64,000 nt of DNA. Origin: Bifidobacterium italicum (GTDB taxonomy: Bacteria; Actinomycetota; Actinomycetes; Actinomycetales; Bifidobacteriaceae). Of the stretch, positions 45,904-53,537 are shown in pieces; position 1 is the first letter of the stretch; each line of letters starts with the position of its first letter. Location: contig NZ_MVOG01000004.1 of the NCBI RefSeq assembly GCF_002286915.1, positions 62,001 to 126,000 of the forward strand, in the 5' to 3' direction. The notes beneath the pieces were generated by a model. That model was given only the letters and a program-made list of their open reading frames with translations, ran no database searches and was not told the DNA's origin. Both the position numbers and the translations under genes were made by a program.

Positions 45904-47241
45904 TCAGGCGCGTGCCAGCAGCTCCGTCCCGTCGGCGATCGGCAGTCCGCCCGTCAGATGGTCGGCGAGCAGCGGCACCGACGTGGCGACGTCTGTGACG
46001 GCCCGGAACAGCGTGCGGCCCGCGCGCACCGACATCACGACGTCGGCGCGCGCGTAGACGGCGCCGAACGCGTCGTGGGCGTCGAGCACGACGAAGTTCG
46101 CCGGCCTGCCCTCCTCGATGCCGTAGACGTCGCGCAGGTGCATCGTCGTGGCGCCGTTGACGGTGAGCAGGTCGAGCGCGCGGTCGATCTCGGGCGGCGT
46201 CATCATCTGCGCCAGATGCAGCACGTAGTCGAGGATGATCATCATGTTGCCGTTGCCGAGCGGATACCACGGGTCCTGCATCGAATCCTGCCCGAGCGAG
46301 ACGTTGACGCCGGCGTCGGTGAGCTCCTTGACGCGCGTGATGCCGCGGCGCTTGGGGAACGTGTCCTGGCGGCCCTGCAGATACAGGTTCTCGGTGGGGG
46401 CGCACGCGAAGTTCATCCGCGAGTTCCTCAGCAGCTTGGTCAGATGGAAGAAATAGCTGTCGTCCGCCGATCCGAGCGAGCAGGTGTGGCTCGCCGTCGT
46501 CATCGCGCCGATGCCCTCGGCATGGGCGAGCGCGGCGAGCAGCTCGACGAAGCGCGAGTTCGGGTCGTCGGTTTCGTCGCAATGCACGTCGATGAGGCGT
46601 CCGTAGCGGGACGCGAGCTCGACGGTCGTATGCATCGAGCGTTCGCCGAACTCGCGGCAGGCCTCGTAATGGGGGATCGCGCCCACGCAGTCGGCGCCCA
46701 TCCGCAGCCCCTCCTCGACGAGGCCGGCGCCGCCGGGATACGAATACATGCCCTCCTGCGGGAACGCGACGATCTGGATCGTCACGAGGTCGGCGAGCTC
46801 CTCGCGCAGTTCGAGCAGCGCGCGCAGCGACGTGAGCTGCGGATCGGTGACGTCGGCGTGTGTGCGGATGTACTGCACGCCGTGGCGCATCTCCATCGCC
46901 ACCGCACGGCGTGCGCGCGCCTTCACCTCGTCGACCGTCAGATCCGCCTTCGTCTCGCCCCAGCGTTGGATGCCCTCGAACAATGTGCCCGAGGTGTTCG
47001 CGGCGCCGGGCTTGCGGGACGTGAACACGTAGTCGAGGTGCAGATGCGTGTCGCAGAACGGGGCGCTGACGAGACGGCCCCCGAGGTCGACGACGGCCGC
47101 GCGCGTCAGGTCGTACCCTTGCGCGGCGAGCGTCGCGGGCAGATCGGGGCCGATCATGCGGAACCTGCCGTCCTCGACGAGCATGTCCTGCGGCTGGGGG
47201 CGTCCGCGCAATATGGCGTTGGTGAAAAGCGTGACGGTCAT
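45904..47241 (-). CDS. codA: Cytosine deaminase-family amidohydrolase
   Basis: 445 residues from the ATG at 47241 (an ATG directly before it is also possible; AAAGGA upstream). TIM-barrel amidohydrolase with the full CodA metal set: FCDTHLHLDY (H66, H68), DVHCDETDDP, a histidine in TASHTCSLGS and aspartate in SLGQDSMQDPWYPLGNGNMM. Deaminates cytosine to uracil. Bacterial enzymes of this family can also deaminate creatinine to N-methylhydantoin. Divergently transcribed from a PucR regulator that also leads into a transporter and a creatininase, which makes the second activity worth considering. Cytoplasmic. Confidence 0.9.
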   Translation of the reverse strand: MTVTLFTNAILRGRPQPQDMLVEDGRFRMIGPDLPATLAAQGYDLTRAAVVDLGGRLVSAPFCDTHLHLDYVFTSRKPGAANTSGTLFEGIQRWGETKADLTVDEVKARARRAVAMEMRHGVQYIRTHADVTDPQLTSLRALLELREELADLVTIQIVAFPQEGMYSYPGGAGLVEEGLRMGADCVGAIPHYEACREFGERSMHTTVELASRYGRLIDVHCDETDDPNSRFVELLAALAHAEGIGAMTTASHTCSLGSADDSYFFHLTKLLRNSRMNFACAPTENLYLQGRQDTFPKRRGITRVKELTDAGVNVSLGQDSMQDPWYPLGNGNMMIILDYVLHLAQMMTPPEIDRALDLLTVNGATTMHLRDVYGIEEGRPANFVVLDAHDAFGAVYARADVVMSVRAGRTLFRAVTDVATSVPLLADHLTGGLPIADGTELLARA

Positions 47242-47394
47242 CATGGGTCCTTTCTCGTATCGGTGCGTCGCCCGTGACGTGCAGGTAACGCGAACCGGGC
47301 CTGTGCGTAATCTGTGCCCGTTATTCTCGCCGGCATCATTTGCGTGCGTATGGCGGCCATGTGAATGCATGGCGATGAGGAATGGACGGTTTGT
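47242..47394. promoter_or_regulatory. Divergent promoter region, codA and pucR-like gene
   Basis: 150 nt between the divergent genes. Contains ribosome-binding sites for both but no palindrome that I can single out as the PucR operator. Confidence 0.35.
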
Positions 47395-48975
47395 ATGACG
47401 GTGACGGTGAAGGATGCGCTCGAACGATCCGTGCTCGCGCAGGCGGACCCGACGGTGGAGGCCGCGCCCGAGGCGCTTGGCAACGCGGTCCGGTGGGCGT
47501 ATACGAACGAACGGTACGATGTGGCGCGCTTCCTGTCCGGCGGCGAGCTCGTCATCGTCGAGGGCAGCGCGTTGTTCGCGCGTCTCGATGATGTGGAACT
47601 CGCGGGATACGTGGATTCGCTCGCCCGGATCGGCGCGGCCGGGCTCGTCGTCGAACTCGTCGAAGGGCTGCGCGACGTGCCGGCGGCGCTGCGCTCGCGC
47701 GCAGGGGAACGCGGCGTGCCGGTCATCGGGCTGCGCTCGCGGGTGCCGTTCGTGGACGCCTGCCAGAGCGTGAACACGCTCATCGTCAAGGACCAGTTCC
47801 TCATGCAGATGGAGGTGGACGCATTGTCCACCGTGCTGCGGCGTGAGCTTGCGCAGGCGGACGACGCGCAGCAGGTGGGCGCATGCCTGTCGCGCATCTG
47901 CGGTGAGTCGGTCGCGATCTTCGACGCCGACGGGCTGCCGGTCGCGTTCGCCGGTCCGGCGATGGCCCGCGGGGAGACGACGGTGCTCATCGCGATCGGG
48001 CGGCAGGACGTGCCGGTCGCCACATTGGAGCTTTCGCAGCGGGTGCGCCTGTTCGACGAGCGCACGCGGACGCAGATCGCGCAGGTCGTCGGCCAGGTCA
48101 TGGCGGCGCTGACGCCGTCGGACGTCTCCGCCTCGATGATCGCGCGCGTCCTGGCGGGTCCCGTCGACGGCGTGCACGTCGGACGCGAGGAGGCGCATGA
48201 CGTCGGGCAGATGCTCGGGGCGCTCGGGTTCCCGGAACGCACACTGTATTATCCCTTCGCGCTGGGCATGCGTTCGCTCGTGTCGTCCGCGGAAGGCATG
48301 GAACGCCTGCTGTCCGGATTCGCCGCGATCGACGGGGCGCAGACGCTGTGCCTGCTGGACGGCGGCGTATTGTTCGGACTGGTCGGCAAGGAAGTCTCGG
48401 ATGCGGCGGACGGCGCGCCGCGAATGGATGGGGAGGCGGCCGGCATGGCCGGCGCCGGCGCGTTCGCCTCGGCATGCGCCGATGTGTTGCGCGGCGTCGC
48501 GCGGGAGGATGGCGGCGTCTGGGCGTTCGGCGGCCGCGCGGTCGCCGAGGCGGGGATGCTCGTCGACGTGATCGGCGTCATGCGCGCATGCATCCGCGTG
48601 TCCGCGCCGCGGTGGGGGTCGGTGCGCACCGTATACGACGAGCTGCTCGTGCGCTTCGCGCAGGTGGGGCGCACGGAACGGGCGGTCGCGATGCTGCTCG
48701 GCGTGATGCTGGGGGAGGCGCTGGCGTCGGACGTCACGCTCGTCGGGACGCTCGCCGCCTGCTTCGATTCCGGCGACAACAAGACCCGGGCGTGCGGGCG
48801 GCTGGGGATCCGACGCCAGACGCTGTACAACAGGTTGGACAAAGTGCACAGGATGTCCGGCATCGCGTCGGACGACGGGGCGGCCTGGTCGCTGCTGCTG
48901 TTCGCGGCGAGGCTCGCGCTCGACGTGTGCGACGACGGGCCGCAGGCGCGTTGGCGAGCAGGAGGAACGTCTTGA
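47395..48975 (+). CDS. PucR-family transcriptional activator
   Basis: 526 residues from the ATG at 47395. N-terminal PucR domain (VKDALERSV, then ELVIVEGSALFA, GAAGLVVELVEGLRDVP). A central GAF/GGDEF-like region follows, then a C-terminal helix-turn-helix: TLAACFDSGDNKTRACGRLG and RRQTLYNRLDKVHRMSG. PucR proteins sense purine catabolites such as allantoin and activate nitrogen-scavenging genes. It probably controls codA and the downstream transporter and creatininase. Ligand unknown. The ribosome-binding site is weak. Confidence 0.85.
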   Translation: MTVTVKDALERSVLAQADPTVEAAPEALGNAVRWAYTNERYDVARFLSGGELVIVEGSALFARLDDVELAGYVDSLARIGAAGLVVELVEGLRDVPAALRSRAGERGVPVIGLRSRVPFVDACQSVNTLIVKDQFLMQMEVDALSTVLRRELAQADDAQQVGACLSRICGESVAIFDADGLPVAFAGPAMARGETTVLIAIGRQDVPVATLELSQRVRLFDERTRTQIAQVVGQVMAALTPSDVSASMIARVLAGPVDGVHVGREEAHDVGQMLGALGFPERTLYYPFALGMRSLVSSAEGMERLLSGFAAIDGAQTLCLLDGGVLFGLVGKEVSDAADGAPRMDGEAAGMAGAGAFASACADVLRGVAREDGGVWAFGGRAVAEAGMLVDVIGVMRACIRVSAPRWGSVRTVYDELLVRFAQVGRTERAVAMLLGVMLGEALASDVTLVGTLAACFDSGDNKTRACGRLGIRRQTLYNRLDKVHRMSGIASDDGAAWSLLLFAARLALDVCDDGPQARWRAGGTS

Positions 48976-49105
48976 CGAAACGTCATCCGTATGCATGCGC
49001 GCATTAACGGCATGTTCATGACGCGGCAAACGCGGCGCGGGATAGTGCGCATATCGCGGCGCGACGTCGCGGATATGACCAATCCGAGCAGAAAGGTGGG
49101 ATGCC

Positions 49106-50479
49106 ATGAGTGCCATAACGGAGGCGGGGCTGAAAGTCCGGGAACTGGAAGGCGTCGAGCGCGGGCCCGAGGACGAGCGTCAGGGCATGGTGCGCAAGGT
49201 CGCGCTGTCGTCGTTCCTCGGCAACTTCATCGAATGGTTCGACTATGCCTCGTATTCATATTTCGCCACGGTGATCGCCGGCGTGTTCTTCCCGTCGGCC
49301 GACCGCACCGTCGCATTGATGCAGACCTTCGGCGTGTTCGCGCTGTCGTTCGTGCTTCGGCCGGTCGGCGCGCTGTTCTGGGGTCATTTTGGCGACCGCT
49401 TCGGCCGCAAGCGTGCGCTGAGCCTGTCCATCCTGCTGATGTCCGGCGCCTCGTTCCTCATCGGCTGCCTGCCGTCGTACGCATTGATCGGCCTGGTCGC
49501 GCCGCTGCTGCTGCTGGCGCTGCGCATGGTGCAAGGCTTCTCGGCGTCCGGAGAATACGCCGGCGCGGCCACGTTCCTCGGCGAATACGCGCCGGTGAAG
49601 CGCCGCGGCATCTACTGCTCGTTGATCCCGGCGTCGACCGCCATCGGCCTGCTCGCCGGTTCGACGCTCGCGATGGTGATGACCTCGCATCTGAGCGCGG
49701 CCGCGATGGGCGGCTGGGGTTGGCGCGTGCCGTTCCTGCTGGCCGGCCCGCTGGGCCTGATCGTGCACTACATCCGCAACAACGTCGCGGATTCGCCGAT
49801 CTACGAGCAGATGAACGCTGAACTCGAGCGCAAGCAGGAGGGTGCACACGATGCCGGGCGTCCCGTCTCGCCGCTGCGCACGCTGTTCCGCCACCACTTC
49901 AAGCAGGTGCTGCTGAGCTTCGGCGCGTGCATGCTCAACGCGGTGGGCTTCTATACGGTGCTGACCTATCTGCCCACCTATCTTTCGGAAACCGTCGGCA
50001 TGGCGGCCTCCGAATCCTCGCTCGTCACGACGATCTGCCTCGTGCTGTACATCGGGCTCGTCTTCGCGATGGGGCACATCTCCGATCGATTCGGACGCAA
50101 GAAGGTGCTCATCGGCGCCTGCGTGGCCTTCATCGTGCTGACCGTCCCGGCCTTCATGATCCTCGAGACCGGAGCATTCTGGCCCGTGCTGCTCGTCGAG
50201 CTCGCGCTGTGCGCGACGCTCACCGCCAACGACGGCACCCTGTCGAGCTACCTGACCGAGACCTTCCCGACGAGCGTGCGTTTCACCGGATTCGCCTTCA
50301 GCTTCAACCTCGCGAACGCGATCTTCGGCGGCACGGCGCCGTTCATCGCGACATGGCTCATCTGGGCCACCGGCTCGCCGATCGCGCCGGCCTGGTACAT
50401 GGTGGCGATCGCCGCCGTCGCGCTCGTGGCGATGTGCCTGTCGCACGAGAACACCGAGAAGGATCTGGGCACGATCTGA
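49106..50479 (+). CDS. MHS-family MFS transporter
   Basis: 457 residues with 12 helices. SSFLGNFIEWFDYASYSYFA and GHFGDRFGRKRALSLSILLM are signatures of the metabolite:H+ symporter group (ProP, ShiA, KgtP). FSASGEYAGAATFLGEYAPV is the MHS helix-5 region. Ribosome-binding site GAAAGGTGGG. Located between the PucR regulator and creatininase, so creatinine, creatine or a similar compound is the plausible substrate. Confidence 0.85.
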   Translation: MSAITEAGLKVRELEGVERGPEDERQGMVRKVALSSFLGNFIEWFDYASYSYFATVIAGVFFPSADRTVALMQTFGVFALSFVLRPVGALFWGHFGDRFGRKRALSLSILLMSGASFLIGCLPSYALIGLVAPLLLLALRMVQGFSASGEYAGAATFLGEYAPVKRRGIYCSLIPASTAIGLLAGSTLAMVMTSHLSAAAMGGWGWRVPFLLAGPLGLIVHYIRNNVADSPIYEQMNAELERKQEGAHDAGRPVSPLRTLFRHHFKQVLLSFGACMLNAVGFYTVLTYLPTYLSETVGMAASESSLVTTICLVLYIGLVFAMGHISDRFGRKKVLIGACVAFIVLTVPAFMILETGAFWPVLLVELALCATLTANDGTLSSYLTETFPTSVRFTGFAFSFNLANAIFGGTAPFIATWLIWATGSPIAPAWYMVAIAAVALVAMCLSHENTEKDLGTI

Positions 50480-50484
50480 AATCA

Positions 50485-50577
50485 GCATCGATCAGTCGAA
50501 TCAACGCGGCGACAATCAATCAACGCAGCAGTAATCAATCAGCGGAACATCAATCAACGGAGCACATAAGGAGAAGA
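50485..50577. repeat. Short tandem echoes of AATCAACG before the creatininase gene
   Basis: The 100-nt spacer repeats AATCAACG or CAATCAACG several times (near 50501, 50515 and 50551), ending with AGGAGAAGAAG, the ribosome-binding site. A similar AATCAACG echo occurs in the spacer before the MFS gene at 34170. Confidence 0.5.
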
Positions 50578-50579
50578 AG

Positions 50580-51332
50580 ATGACCTACCGCATGGACGAA
50601 ATGACATGGCCTCAATTCGCGGCGCGCAAGGACAAGCCGGTGATCGTGCCGATCGGGTCGACCGAACAGCACAGCCAGCACCTGCCGATGCAGACGGACG
50701 CGACGCTCGCCGCATGCATCGCCGAGGACCTCGCACAGGCCGTGGACGGCACCGTCATGCCGACGCTCAACTACGGATACAAATCGAAGCCGCTCTCCGG
50801 AGGCGGACCGCTCTTCCCCGGCACGATCGACATGAACGGCGCCACCGTCATCGCGCAGATGCACGACGTGCTGCGCGAACTCATCGACGACGGCTTCACG
50901 AAGATCGTCGTCATGAACGCACATTTCGAGAACGAGGCGTTCATCGTCGAGGCCATCGATCTGGTGACGCGCGAGACCGACGGCGTCGCGACGATCATCG
51001 AGACGAACTGGTGGGATCCGCTCACCGCGGACGTCATCGACGAAGTGTTCGCCGGCGACCTCGAGTTCCCCGGATGGGCGCTCGAACATGCGGCCGTCAC
51101 CGAGACCGCGCTCATGCTGCACTACGCGCCCGAACTCGTGCACATGGACCGCATCGTCTACGAGGAGCCGGTGACGCCCAAGCCGTACGTGCGCTACCCG
51201 GTGCGCGAAGGCGACGTGCCCGCCTACGGCGGCCTCGCCGATCCGCGCGGCGCGACGGCGCAGGCGGGAAGGCTGATGGCCGAGGCGTGCGTGCGCGAGG
51301 TCGCGGCGATCTGCGCGGCGGAGTTTGCGTGA
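50580..51332 (+). CDS. Creatininase (creatinine amidohydrolase)
   Basis: 250 residues. Interconverts creatinine and creatine. The metal ligands E29, H31 (GSTEQHSQHL), D40, H115 and E117 (MNAHFENEAF) have exactly the spacing of Pseudomonas creatininase (E34, H36, D45, H120, E122). LNYGYKSKPLSGGGPLFPGT, AFIVEAIDLVTRE and GWALEHAAVTETALML also align closely with that enzyme as I recall it. This is a much closer match than to the broader creatininase-fold families such as MftE or ArfB. Ribosome-binding site AGGAGAAGAAG. No creatinase or sarcosine gene is in the window, so the fate of the product is unclear. Confidence 0.88.
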   Translation: MTYRMDEMTWPQFAARKDKPVIVPIGSTEQHSQHLPMQTDATLAACIAEDLAQAVDGTVMPTLNYGYKSKPLSGGGPLFPGTIDMNGATVIAQMHDVLRELIDDGFTKIVVMNAHFENEAFIVEAIDLVTRETDGVATIIETNWWDPLTADVIDEVFAGDLEFPGWALEHAAVTETALMLHYAPELVHMDRIVYEEPVTPKPYVRYPVREGDVPAYGGLADPRGATAQAGRLMAEACVREVAAICAAEFA

Positions 51333-51420: not shown

Positions 51421-53043
51421 ATGGAGGGCATGGATGCACGGAGCTATCTCGCCATAGATCTCAAGTCGTTCTACGCATCCGAGGAATGCGTGGAGCGCGG
51501 GCTCGATCCGCTCGACGCCAATCTGGTCGTCGCGGATCGCTCGCGCACGTCCAAAACGATCTGCCTCGCCGTCTCGCCATCGCTCAAGGCGTTGCTCGGC
51601 ATCGGCGGCCGTCCGCGGCTGTTCGAAATCGAGGAACGCATGCGCGACATCAACGAGCAACGGCGGCTGCGCGCGCCGGGACGCCGCTTCGCAGGTGCAT
51701 CGACGAGCGCGGCCGCGCTCGCGGCGGACCCGTCGCTCAAGGCGGAGGTCATCGTCGCGAAGCCGCGCATGGCGCATTATCTCGAAGCGAGCGCGCGCAT
51801 CTACGGCATCTATCTGCGCTATGCGGACGCGCGGGACATCCACGTCTACTCGATCGACGAGGTCTTCATCGACGCCACGTCGTATCTGGGATACTTCGGC
51901 TGCGACGCGCATGAACTCGCGCGGCGCATCGTCGCGGACATCATGCGCGAGACCGGCATCACAGCGACGGCAGGCATCGGCACGAACATGTATCTGGCGA
52001 AGGTTGCGATGGACGTCGTCGCCAAGCACATTCCGGAGGACGAGGACGGCGTGCGCATCGCGCGGCTCGACGAAATGGAATACCGGCGCGCGCTGTGGGC
52101 GCACCGGCCGCTCACCGACTTCTGGCGCATCGGGCCGGGCATGTCGCGCATGCTCGAACATCACGGGCTGCTGACGATGGGTGACGTCGCGCGCTGCTCG
52201 GTCGGCTCGCCGAACGACTACTACAACGAGGGGCTGCTCTACCGGCTGTTCGGCGTCAACGCGGAGCTGCTCATCGACCACGCATGGGGATGGGAGCCGT
52301 GCACGATCGCCGACATCAAGGCGTACCGTCCGCACGACTCGACGAGGAGCTGCGGGCAGGTGCTGCACGAGCCGTACGCGTACGCGCGGGCGCGCACGAT
52401 CGTGTTCGAGATGGCCAACGAGCTCGCCTACGACCTGCTTAGGCACGGCGAGATGACCGATCTGGTCACGCTCACCGTCAGCTACGACGCCACGAGCCTC
52501 GGCGGGGCACGCGGCGAGGGGTATGCGGGACCCGTCGTCGCCGACCGCTACGGAAGACGCGTGCCGAAAAGCGCGCACGGTTCGCATCGGATGGGCCGGG
52601 CGACGGCGAACGCGGCACGGCTGCGTGAAGCCTTCGCCGAGATCTTCGAGCGGACCGTCGACCCGGACCTGCTCGTGCGGTACGTCGCCGTGAGCGCGAC
52701 GAGGGTCGGCGGGGCGGATGCTGGCGGATCGGATGATGGTGGAATGGGCGAGCGGGGCCTCGATGGAGATGGAACGCTCGGCGGGAGATATGAGCAGCCG
52801 GATCTGTTTGCGGCTGTCGACGATGCGGATGGCGTGAGCGATGCCGGCGCAGATGATGGTGGTGACGTGCGTGGGGCGGACGACCGCGACGGCGACCGCG
52901 ATGCGCGCGAACTCGCCGTGCAGCGCGCGTTGCTTGGCATCAAGGGACGCTTCGGCGGCAACGCCGTGATCACCGGGCGCAACCTCGAGGACGGCGCGAC
53001 TGGTGTCGAACGCAACAGACAGATCGGAGGGCACGCCGCATGA
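51421..53043 (+). CDS. Y-family DNA polymerase (UmuC/ImpB type)
   Basis: 540 residues from the ATG at 51421; the ATG at 51430 is an alternative. Error-prone translesion polymerase. The catalytic acids are in YLAIDLKSFYASEECVERG and DIHVYSIDEVFIDATSYL. The helix-hairpin-helix region is FWRIGPGMSRMLEHHGLLTM. The little-finger domain runs from about 320, followed by a low-complexity Gly/Asp-rich tail (about 430-490). The start lies almost on the SOS box, so the mRNA may be leaderless, or the start may be the 51430 ATG just after GGAGGG. Overlaps the next gene by 4 nt. Confidence 0.9.
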   Translation: MEGMDARSYLAIDLKSFYASEECVERGLDPLDANLVVADRSRTSKTICLAVSPSLKALLGIGGRPRLFEIEERMRDINEQRRLRAPGRRFAGASTSAAALAADPSLKAEVIVAKPRMAHYLEASARIYGIYLRYADARDIHVYSIDEVFIDATSYLGYFGCDAHELARRIVADIMRETGITATAGIGTNMYLAKVAMDVVAKHIPEDEDGVRIARLDEMEYRRALWAHRPLTDFWRIGPGMSRMLEHHGLLTMGDVARCSVGSPNDYYNEGLLYRLFGVNAELLIDHAWGWEPCTIADIKAYRPHDSTRSCGQVLHEPYAYARARTIVFEMANELAYDLLRHGEMTDLVTLTVSYDATSLGGARGEGYAGPVVADRYGRRVPKSAHGSHRMGRATANAARLREAFAEIFERTVDPDLLVRYVAVSATRVGGADAGGSDDGGMGERGLDGDGTLGGRYEQPDLFAAVDDADGVSDAGADDGGDVRGADDRDGDRDARELAVQRALLGIKGRFGGNAVITGRNLEDGATGVERNRQIGGHAA

Positions 53044-53537
53044 GCCTCGAACGCACGCATCGCTACGACGACATCATCGACATGCCGCATCATCGTTCGC
53101 AAGTCCATGCACCGCTGTCGGCGGCGCAGCGGGCCGCGCAGTTCATGCCTTTCGCGGCCCTCGCTGGATACGAGGAGATCGTCGAGGATGCTGCGCGCCC
53201 GCGCGTGCGACGCATCGAACTGGGGCAGGACGCGCGCGAGGAGCTCGATCGGCGTCTCGCCGCGCTGCTCGCGCGCTTCGACGATGCGCCGCGCGTCGCA
53301 GTGACGTACTTCGTGCCTGAGGATGGCGGGAGCCGGCATCGTGGTGGAGGTCAGCATGGCGGAATCAATGGTGGAATCAACAGCGAAGTCGACGAGGAAT
53401 TCGGCACGTATGTGACGGTGCGCGGCGCGGTGACGCGCTATGACGGGACGGCGCGCCGGCTGCTGATCGTGGATGAACACGGCGCGGTGTGCGTCGTACC
53501 GTGGGCGGACATCGTGCGCATTGTCGTCGACGGATGA
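53040..53537 (+). CDS. YolD-like partner of the Y-family polymerase
   Basis: 165 residues; starts within the polymerase stop (ATGA). YDDIIDMPHHRSQVHAPLSA, then AQRAAQFMPFAALAGYEEIV, matches the YolD-like proteins that are encoded beside UmuC-type polymerases in Gram-positive bacteria. A Gly/His-rich linker lies at about 98-112 and a beta-rich C-terminus follows (VVPWADIVRIV). Presumably it modulates the polymerase during SOS. Expression should follow LexA control through the shared operon. Confidence 0.85.
   Translation: MSLERTHRYDDIIDMPHHRSQVHAPLSAAQRAAQFMPFAALAGYEEIVEDAARPRVRRIELGQDAREELDRRLAALLARFDDAPRVAVTYFVPEDGGSRHRGGGQHGGINGGINSEVDEEFGTYVTVRGAVTRYDGTARRLLIVDEHGAVCVVPWADIVRIVVDG

Follow-up and report, generated by a model that had tools for sequence, protein, structure and literature searches.

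The 64-kb stretch of Bifidobacterium italicum DNA under study, hereafter the window, carries a cassette of four genes coding for a CodA-like amidohydrolase, a PucR-family regulator, an MHS symporter and a creatininase (Table 1), which probably serves the PucR-controlled scavenging of nitrogen from creatine and creatinine. In the proposed route the CreT-like MHS symporter would import creatine, and perhaps creatinine as well, the creatininase would turn creatine into creatinine, and CodA would deaminate creatinine to N-methylhydantoin and NH3, yielding one ammonia as nitrogen source. PucR may sense creatine, creatinine or N-methylhydantoin and act at an inverted repeat between codA and pucR. 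Such a route from creatine via creatinine to CodA would explain why a creatininase is retained without a creatinase. A sequence-only reading of the locus, which had proposed a true creatininase and the uptake of creatine or creatinine as a nitrogen source, holds for the most part, once CodA is given the central place: the gene set and the precedent of Corynebacterium glutamicum (PMC8864220) are in line with it, but the release of nitrogen would fall to CodA and not to the creatininase. The gene layout it had described, with the MHS gene between those for creatininase and PucR and pucR divergent from codA, was confirmed.

Table 1. Features of the proposed creatine/creatinine cassette, with positions in the window.
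Feature	Position	Strand	Remark
codA-like amidohydrolase, Tyr66/Ser314/Tyr281 subtype (E. coli numbering)	45904..47244	-	proposed creatinine deaminase
candidate PucR operator, inverted repeat	47285..47311	.	between codA and pucR
PucR-family transcription regulator	47395..48975	+	divergent from codA
MHS/MFS metabolite:H+ symporter, CreT-like	49106..50479	+	proposed creatine (possibly creatinine) importer
creatininase (creatinine amidohydrolase family)	50580..51332	+	proposed creatine/creatinine interconversion

Conservation of the cassette and its candidate operator

When 189 Bifidobacteriaceae genomes were searched with the NCBIfam creatininase equivalog TIGR04448 and matches above cut-off were counted, a creatininase was found in 16, and all 16 of these species have codA, pucR, the MHS gene and the creatininase gene in identical order. 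Since the arrangement is identical in every creatininase-bearing species, it is far beyond chance, and gene content and conservation of the cassette are established. Far from being peculiar to the B. italicum genome, it occurs in many bifidobacteria, B. catenulatum subsp. kashiwanohense among them. A literature search, with most subscription journals outside its scope, did not bring up any publication on a bifidobacterial creatininase locus. Moreover, MHS orthologues of at least 74% identity are present in exactly the 16 creatininase genomes, the next best two relatives reaching 57%. Position and start codon of pucR are kept in the 16 loci as well; because the sequence TTGTATG is conserved across relatives, the ATG at 47395 rather than 47365 was taken as its start, and codA starts with the ATG at 47244 on the minus strand. 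Both PucR domains lie above their Pfam cut-offs (PF07905, 75.1 bits; PF13556, 42.7 bits).

The gap between the two divergent genes contains the interrupted inverted repeat GTWACG-N15-CGTAAY, which has one match in 64 kb compared with 0.02 expected. Its spacing is exact in 12 of the 16 bifidobacterial loci and off by one in three more, and there is no such repeat in the remaining one (L084), a count that is not a probability because related sequences share ancestry. The repeat was not found in the codA-pucR loci with an NCS1 permease that were examined (see below), and a sigma-70 scan gave no promoter in the codA-pucR gap. The repeat is a candidate for the PucR operator only.

The creatininase and the release of nitrogen

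The creatininase consists of 250 amino acids and carries, as the sequence-only reading had noted, E29, H31, D40, H115 and E117 as well as the YGYKS, SGGG, FPGT and GWALEH blocks. The five residues align with E34, H36, D45, H120 and E122 of the Pseudomonas putida creatininase (PDB 1j2t), all metal ligands are present in the alignment, and W154, W174, H178 and E183 (P. putida numbering, also used below) are likewise retained. The protein passes TIGR04448 with 318.5 bits at a cut-off of 235, and it matches Pfam PF02633 (E = 1e-57) and the solved P. putida structure 1j2t (E = 2.3e-51). With the MftE model TIGR03964 it reaches 103.7 bits, under the cut-off of 172, and with the IolN model NF041098 74.6 bits, under the cut-off of 245. 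In a maximum-likelihood tree of 65 proteins, which held no named ArfB sequence, 16 bifidobacterial and seven Bacillota creatininases form one clade (100/100), here called the gut clade, which nests in a group of 42 rows (97/85) that also holds the P. putida enzyme and creatinase-linked creatininases, with the MftE proteins outside. The phylogeny that had been suggested as a check therefore puts the protein inside the creatininase branch; an identity as MftE is ruled out by score and tree, and one as IolN by score. Family membership and catalytic residues are established in this way, and the designation as a true creatininase holds for TIGR04448, the metal ligands and the phylogeny. It is less firm for the substrate, since the pocket differs from that of the P. 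putida enzyme at five positions.

These five pocket-lining changes relative to the P. putida enzyme are G119A, Y121F, Y153W, D175A and F182T in the alignment, and they run through the whole gut clade with one exception, at 119. We take the substrate pocket of the P. putida creatininase to be formed by W154, W174, G119, Y121, Y153 and F182, a list that reportedly goes back to the structure paper of 2004; W154 and W174 are retained, and the other four are altered. As positions 121 and 175 vary also in creatininases encoded beside creatinase, the pocket changes alone are no argument for another substrate, and we rejected them as proof of a new one: several of these positions also differ among the creatinase-linked enzymes, so that the substitutions are not diagnostic.

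Creatininase is a reversible enzyme and by itself releases no nitrogen. A creatinase, and with it the creatinase route, was not found in the genome, in a search that was run without a positive control. Hydantoinase B gave no match in the genome either, and the ATP-dependent N-methylhydantoin route was rejected on this ground. CodA, of which the genome has one copy only, is therefore the only visible nitrogen-releasing step, and for the same reasons we regard it as part of the pathway, and as its central step, rather than as a mere neighbour. The only isochorismatase of the genome resembles a nicotinamidase, its sequence being judged by eye, and no candidate for an N-carbamoylsarcosine amidase is left.

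The pairing with CodA is also seen outside the bifidobacteria. In five of seven Bacillota loci the creatininase gene is adjacent to or near that of CodA, together with PucR and an SSS symporter, and Clostridia and Negativicutes pair creatininase with CodA in this manner with the SSS symporter in the place of the MHS protein; thus enzymes and regulator persist and the transporter family is swapped. The closest of these kits, from Clostridium neonatale and other Bacillota (L011, L012, L014, L015, L017), share PucR, a creatininase of 57-63% and a CodA of 59-65% identity with the window, but differ from it in the symporter and in gene order. On a plasmid of the alphaproteobacterium Terrarubrum the creatininase gene adjoins codA, whereas in other proteobacteria and actinobacteria it adjoins a gene for an M24 protein of creatinase type. 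Creatininase therefore has two alternative nitrogen-releasing partners, creatinase and CodA. The creatininase-creatinase route of Pseudomonas, Arthrobacter and Paracoccus has the same creatininase metal ligands as the window, and in some actinobacteria (L070-L072) a related MHS transporter lies beside the creatininase and creatinase genes; the difference is that no creatinase was found in the B. italicum genome and that nitrogen release is ascribed to CodA. A plasmid of Halobellus limi (L065) carries a set of codA, creatininase and SSS (sodium:solute) symporter genes, which suggests that the CodA-linked version occurs in archaea too. Two gut-clade creatininases, of Lactonifactor longoviformis (L016) and Clostridium polynesiense (L013), have no CodA within 8 kb, and the neighbourhood of the former includes a TRAP transporter and an MttB-family methyltransferase.

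Since the partner of the gut-clade enzyme is CodA rather than creatinase, the enzyme might also follow CodA in the pathway: once creatinine is deaminated, it would act as an ATP-independent N-methylhydantoin amidohydrolase and open the ring to N-carbamoylsarcosine. The five altered pocket positions would fit this function, and such an ATP-independent enzyme exists in Clostridium FS41, in whose genome report one subunit gene only of the usual two-subunit enzyme is described (PMC4417704). We nevertheless consider this unlikely. Because there is no candidate for an N-carbamoylsarcosine amidase besides the nicotinamidase-like protein, ring opening would gain no further nitrogen; the transporter resembles creatine transporters, and the variation at 121 and 175 is shared with creatinase-linked creatininases. 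It is just as doubtful that the bifidobacterial and gut Bacillota branch as such constitutes a separate ATP-independent N-methylhydantoin amidohydrolase; if true, an activity that is described in anaerobes and unassigned in the literature found would thereby receive its gene.

The transporter and the precedent of C. glutamicum

The MHS protein scores 376.8 bits (E = 1e-112) with TIGR00883, which is below the curated cut-off of 443. It is 49-52% identical to proteins encoded beside creatinase and creatininase in other actinobacteria (L070-L072), and 52-55% to those encoded beside creatininase in further ones (L075-L079). A transporter of the CreT type is suggested by this relationship to creatinase- and creatininase-linked proteins and by its position next to the creatininase gene. 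The two relatives of 57% identity belong to two other bifidobacteria (L151:7058-10616, L152:4518-8150), where they adjoin a ureohydrolase with 7esr, "probable agmatinase 2", as its best match in the PDB; in L151 urease gamma and beta genes are near this pair. An MHS relative beside an agmatinase-like ureohydrolase therefore also points to guanidino substrates, and the arrangement possibly serves the use of guanidine compounds in these bifidobacteria.

The best precedent is C. glutamicum ATCC 14067, which with creT-crnA and crnT-codA has, like the window, an operon of MFS transporter and creatininase as well as CodA for obtaining nitrogen from creatine and creatinine. Homologues of CreT are usually encoded beside creatinase or creatininase, and creT-crnA is required for growth on creatine (PMC8864220). 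All strains of C. glutamicum use creatinine and only those with creT-crnA use creatine, and deletion of creT abolishes growth on creatine, not on creatinine (PMC8864220); the strain phenotype is the one predicted by the proposed creatine route. The CodA of C. glutamicum degrades creatinine to NH3 and N-methylhydantoin (PMC8864220; PMC1578569). In contrast to the window, where a single cassette is associated with PucR, creT-crnA forms an operon of its own there, and AmtR controls the genes. Furthermore, the window cassette has no NCS1 permease, HyuB and carbamoylsarcosine amidase were not found, and the host is a gut anaerobe.

The same system offers another explanation, namely that the transporter brings in creatinine, of which the creatininase hydrolyses one part to creatine, easing toxicity, and CodA deaminates the rest. 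The authors of the C. glutamicum study suggest indeed that CrnA is able to reduce toxic creatinine (PMC8864220), and the reversibility of creatininase would allow it. However, the creT mutant failed to grow on creatine but not on creatinine, the creatinine transporter of C. glutamicum is CrnT and not CreT, and no creatinase was found that could use the creatine further, so that we assign a low probability to detoxification as the function of the cassette.

CodA subtype and points against the proposed function

The CodA of the window reaches 473 bits with the NCBIfam cytosine deaminase subfamily PRK09230, just under the cut-off of 483, with the first six residues missing from the query. It matches PDB 4r7w (E = 1.9e-124), which we take to be the Klebsiella 5-methylcytosine deaminase Kpn00632, and it is about 51% identical to this protein and to E. 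coli CodA alike. Fold, metal ligands and Ser314 (mature numbering, C5 side of the substrate) are as in Kpn00632, whereas E. coli cytosine deaminase has Asp at 314; Tyr66 and Tyr281 match neither solved enzyme, Kpn00632 having Ala and His there. Ser314 is present in every creatininase-linked CodA examined. Residue 314 governs the acceptance of 5-methylcytosine, and in the CodA family Ser314 makes room at C5 of the base for a methyl group (PMC6186785, in which the initiator Met is included in the numbering). When the amidine and carbonyl of creatinine are aligned with those of cytosine, the N-methyl group of creatinine would fall on the place of this 5-methyl.

The same CodA type occurs together with pucR, and without MHS and creatininase genes, in ten bifidobacterial loci (L139-L148), with an NCS1 permease as transporter in those scanned (L140, L142, L145, L148). 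An Asp314 CodA is encoded beyond the NCS1 permease in nine of the ten, and in genome G063 the Asp314 copy lies elsewhere. Since NCS1-type bifidobacteria hold the Ser314 CodA plus a separate Asp314 CodA of cytosine type, a role as plain cytosine deaminase is unlikely for the window-type CodA in these genomes. As the codA-pucR head pairs with either MHS-creatininase or NCS1 permease, head and tail (transporter and enzyme) are swappable. Additional sequence separates codA from pucR in L140, L146 and L147; in L140 it holds a gene for an amidohydrolase of ammeline-hydrolase type. That the cassette serves another nitrogen heterocycle, e.g., 5-methylcytosine or a modified base, with the creatininase acting on the deaminated product, would agree with Ser314, with the PucR-type regulator and with the nucleobase-type NCS1 permease and cytosine-type CodA of the alternative locus, but is very improbable, given that Tyr66 and Tyr281 set CodA apart from the 5-methylcytosine deaminase group, with an identity of about 51%, that MHS relatives adjoin creatinase and that the tree places the creatininase branch within the creatininases.

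Several points weigh against creatine/creatinine scavenging as the function. The Ser314 CodA exists without creatininase in about ten bifidobacteria, next to an NCS1 permease and mostly together with an Asp314 CodA, and Tyr66/Ser314 CodA proteins are encoded on plasmids of Citrobacter (L155), Aerococcus (L156) and Latilactobacillus (L157) with no creatininase nearby; the subtype is therefore not dependent on creatininase, and its exclusive occurrence in creatininase loci is ruled out. Of the five pocket differences from the P. putida creatininase, A119, W153 and T182 are absent from the creatinase-linked enzymes examined, and the creatinase search lacked its positive control. In the C. glutamicum system, which is partly tested experimentally, CodA is likened to that of the window by its published activity. 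Finally, we infer all substrates, the enzyme activities, the direction of flux, the regulator ligand and the operator. As a side observation, the plasmid-borne codA genes of Citrobacter and Latilactobacillus adjoin an MFS transporter gene.

Genomic setting and significance

The cassette is flanked by purF on one side and a Y-family polymerase gene on the other, a location shared with B. phasiani and with B. criceti, the nearest locus (92% creatininase identity); in the other loci checked these neighbours were not within 8 kb. Guanine-plus-cytosine content, overall and at third codon positions, is similar to that of the adjoining pur genes, so that, judged by composition, the cassette is no recent insert of foreign origin. 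The polymerase gene (PF00817, region 51433-53537) overlaps a downstream open reading frame of 165 amino acids (53040-53537) that has no Pfam match. The gap between the MHS and creatininase genes (50480-50579) contains short repeats of AATCAATCA type, which are not present in B. criceti.

It has been vaguely suspected that gut bifidobacteria take part in the removal of creatine and creatinine of the host, and the cassette makes this role directly testable; since 16 Bifidobacteriaceae species have the cassette in intact form, B. catenulatum subsp. kashiwanohense being one of them, this can be done with available strains. If the proposed function is true, gut microbes could turn both creatine and creatinine into N-methylhydantoin, and this would bear on the clearance of creatinine in the gut.

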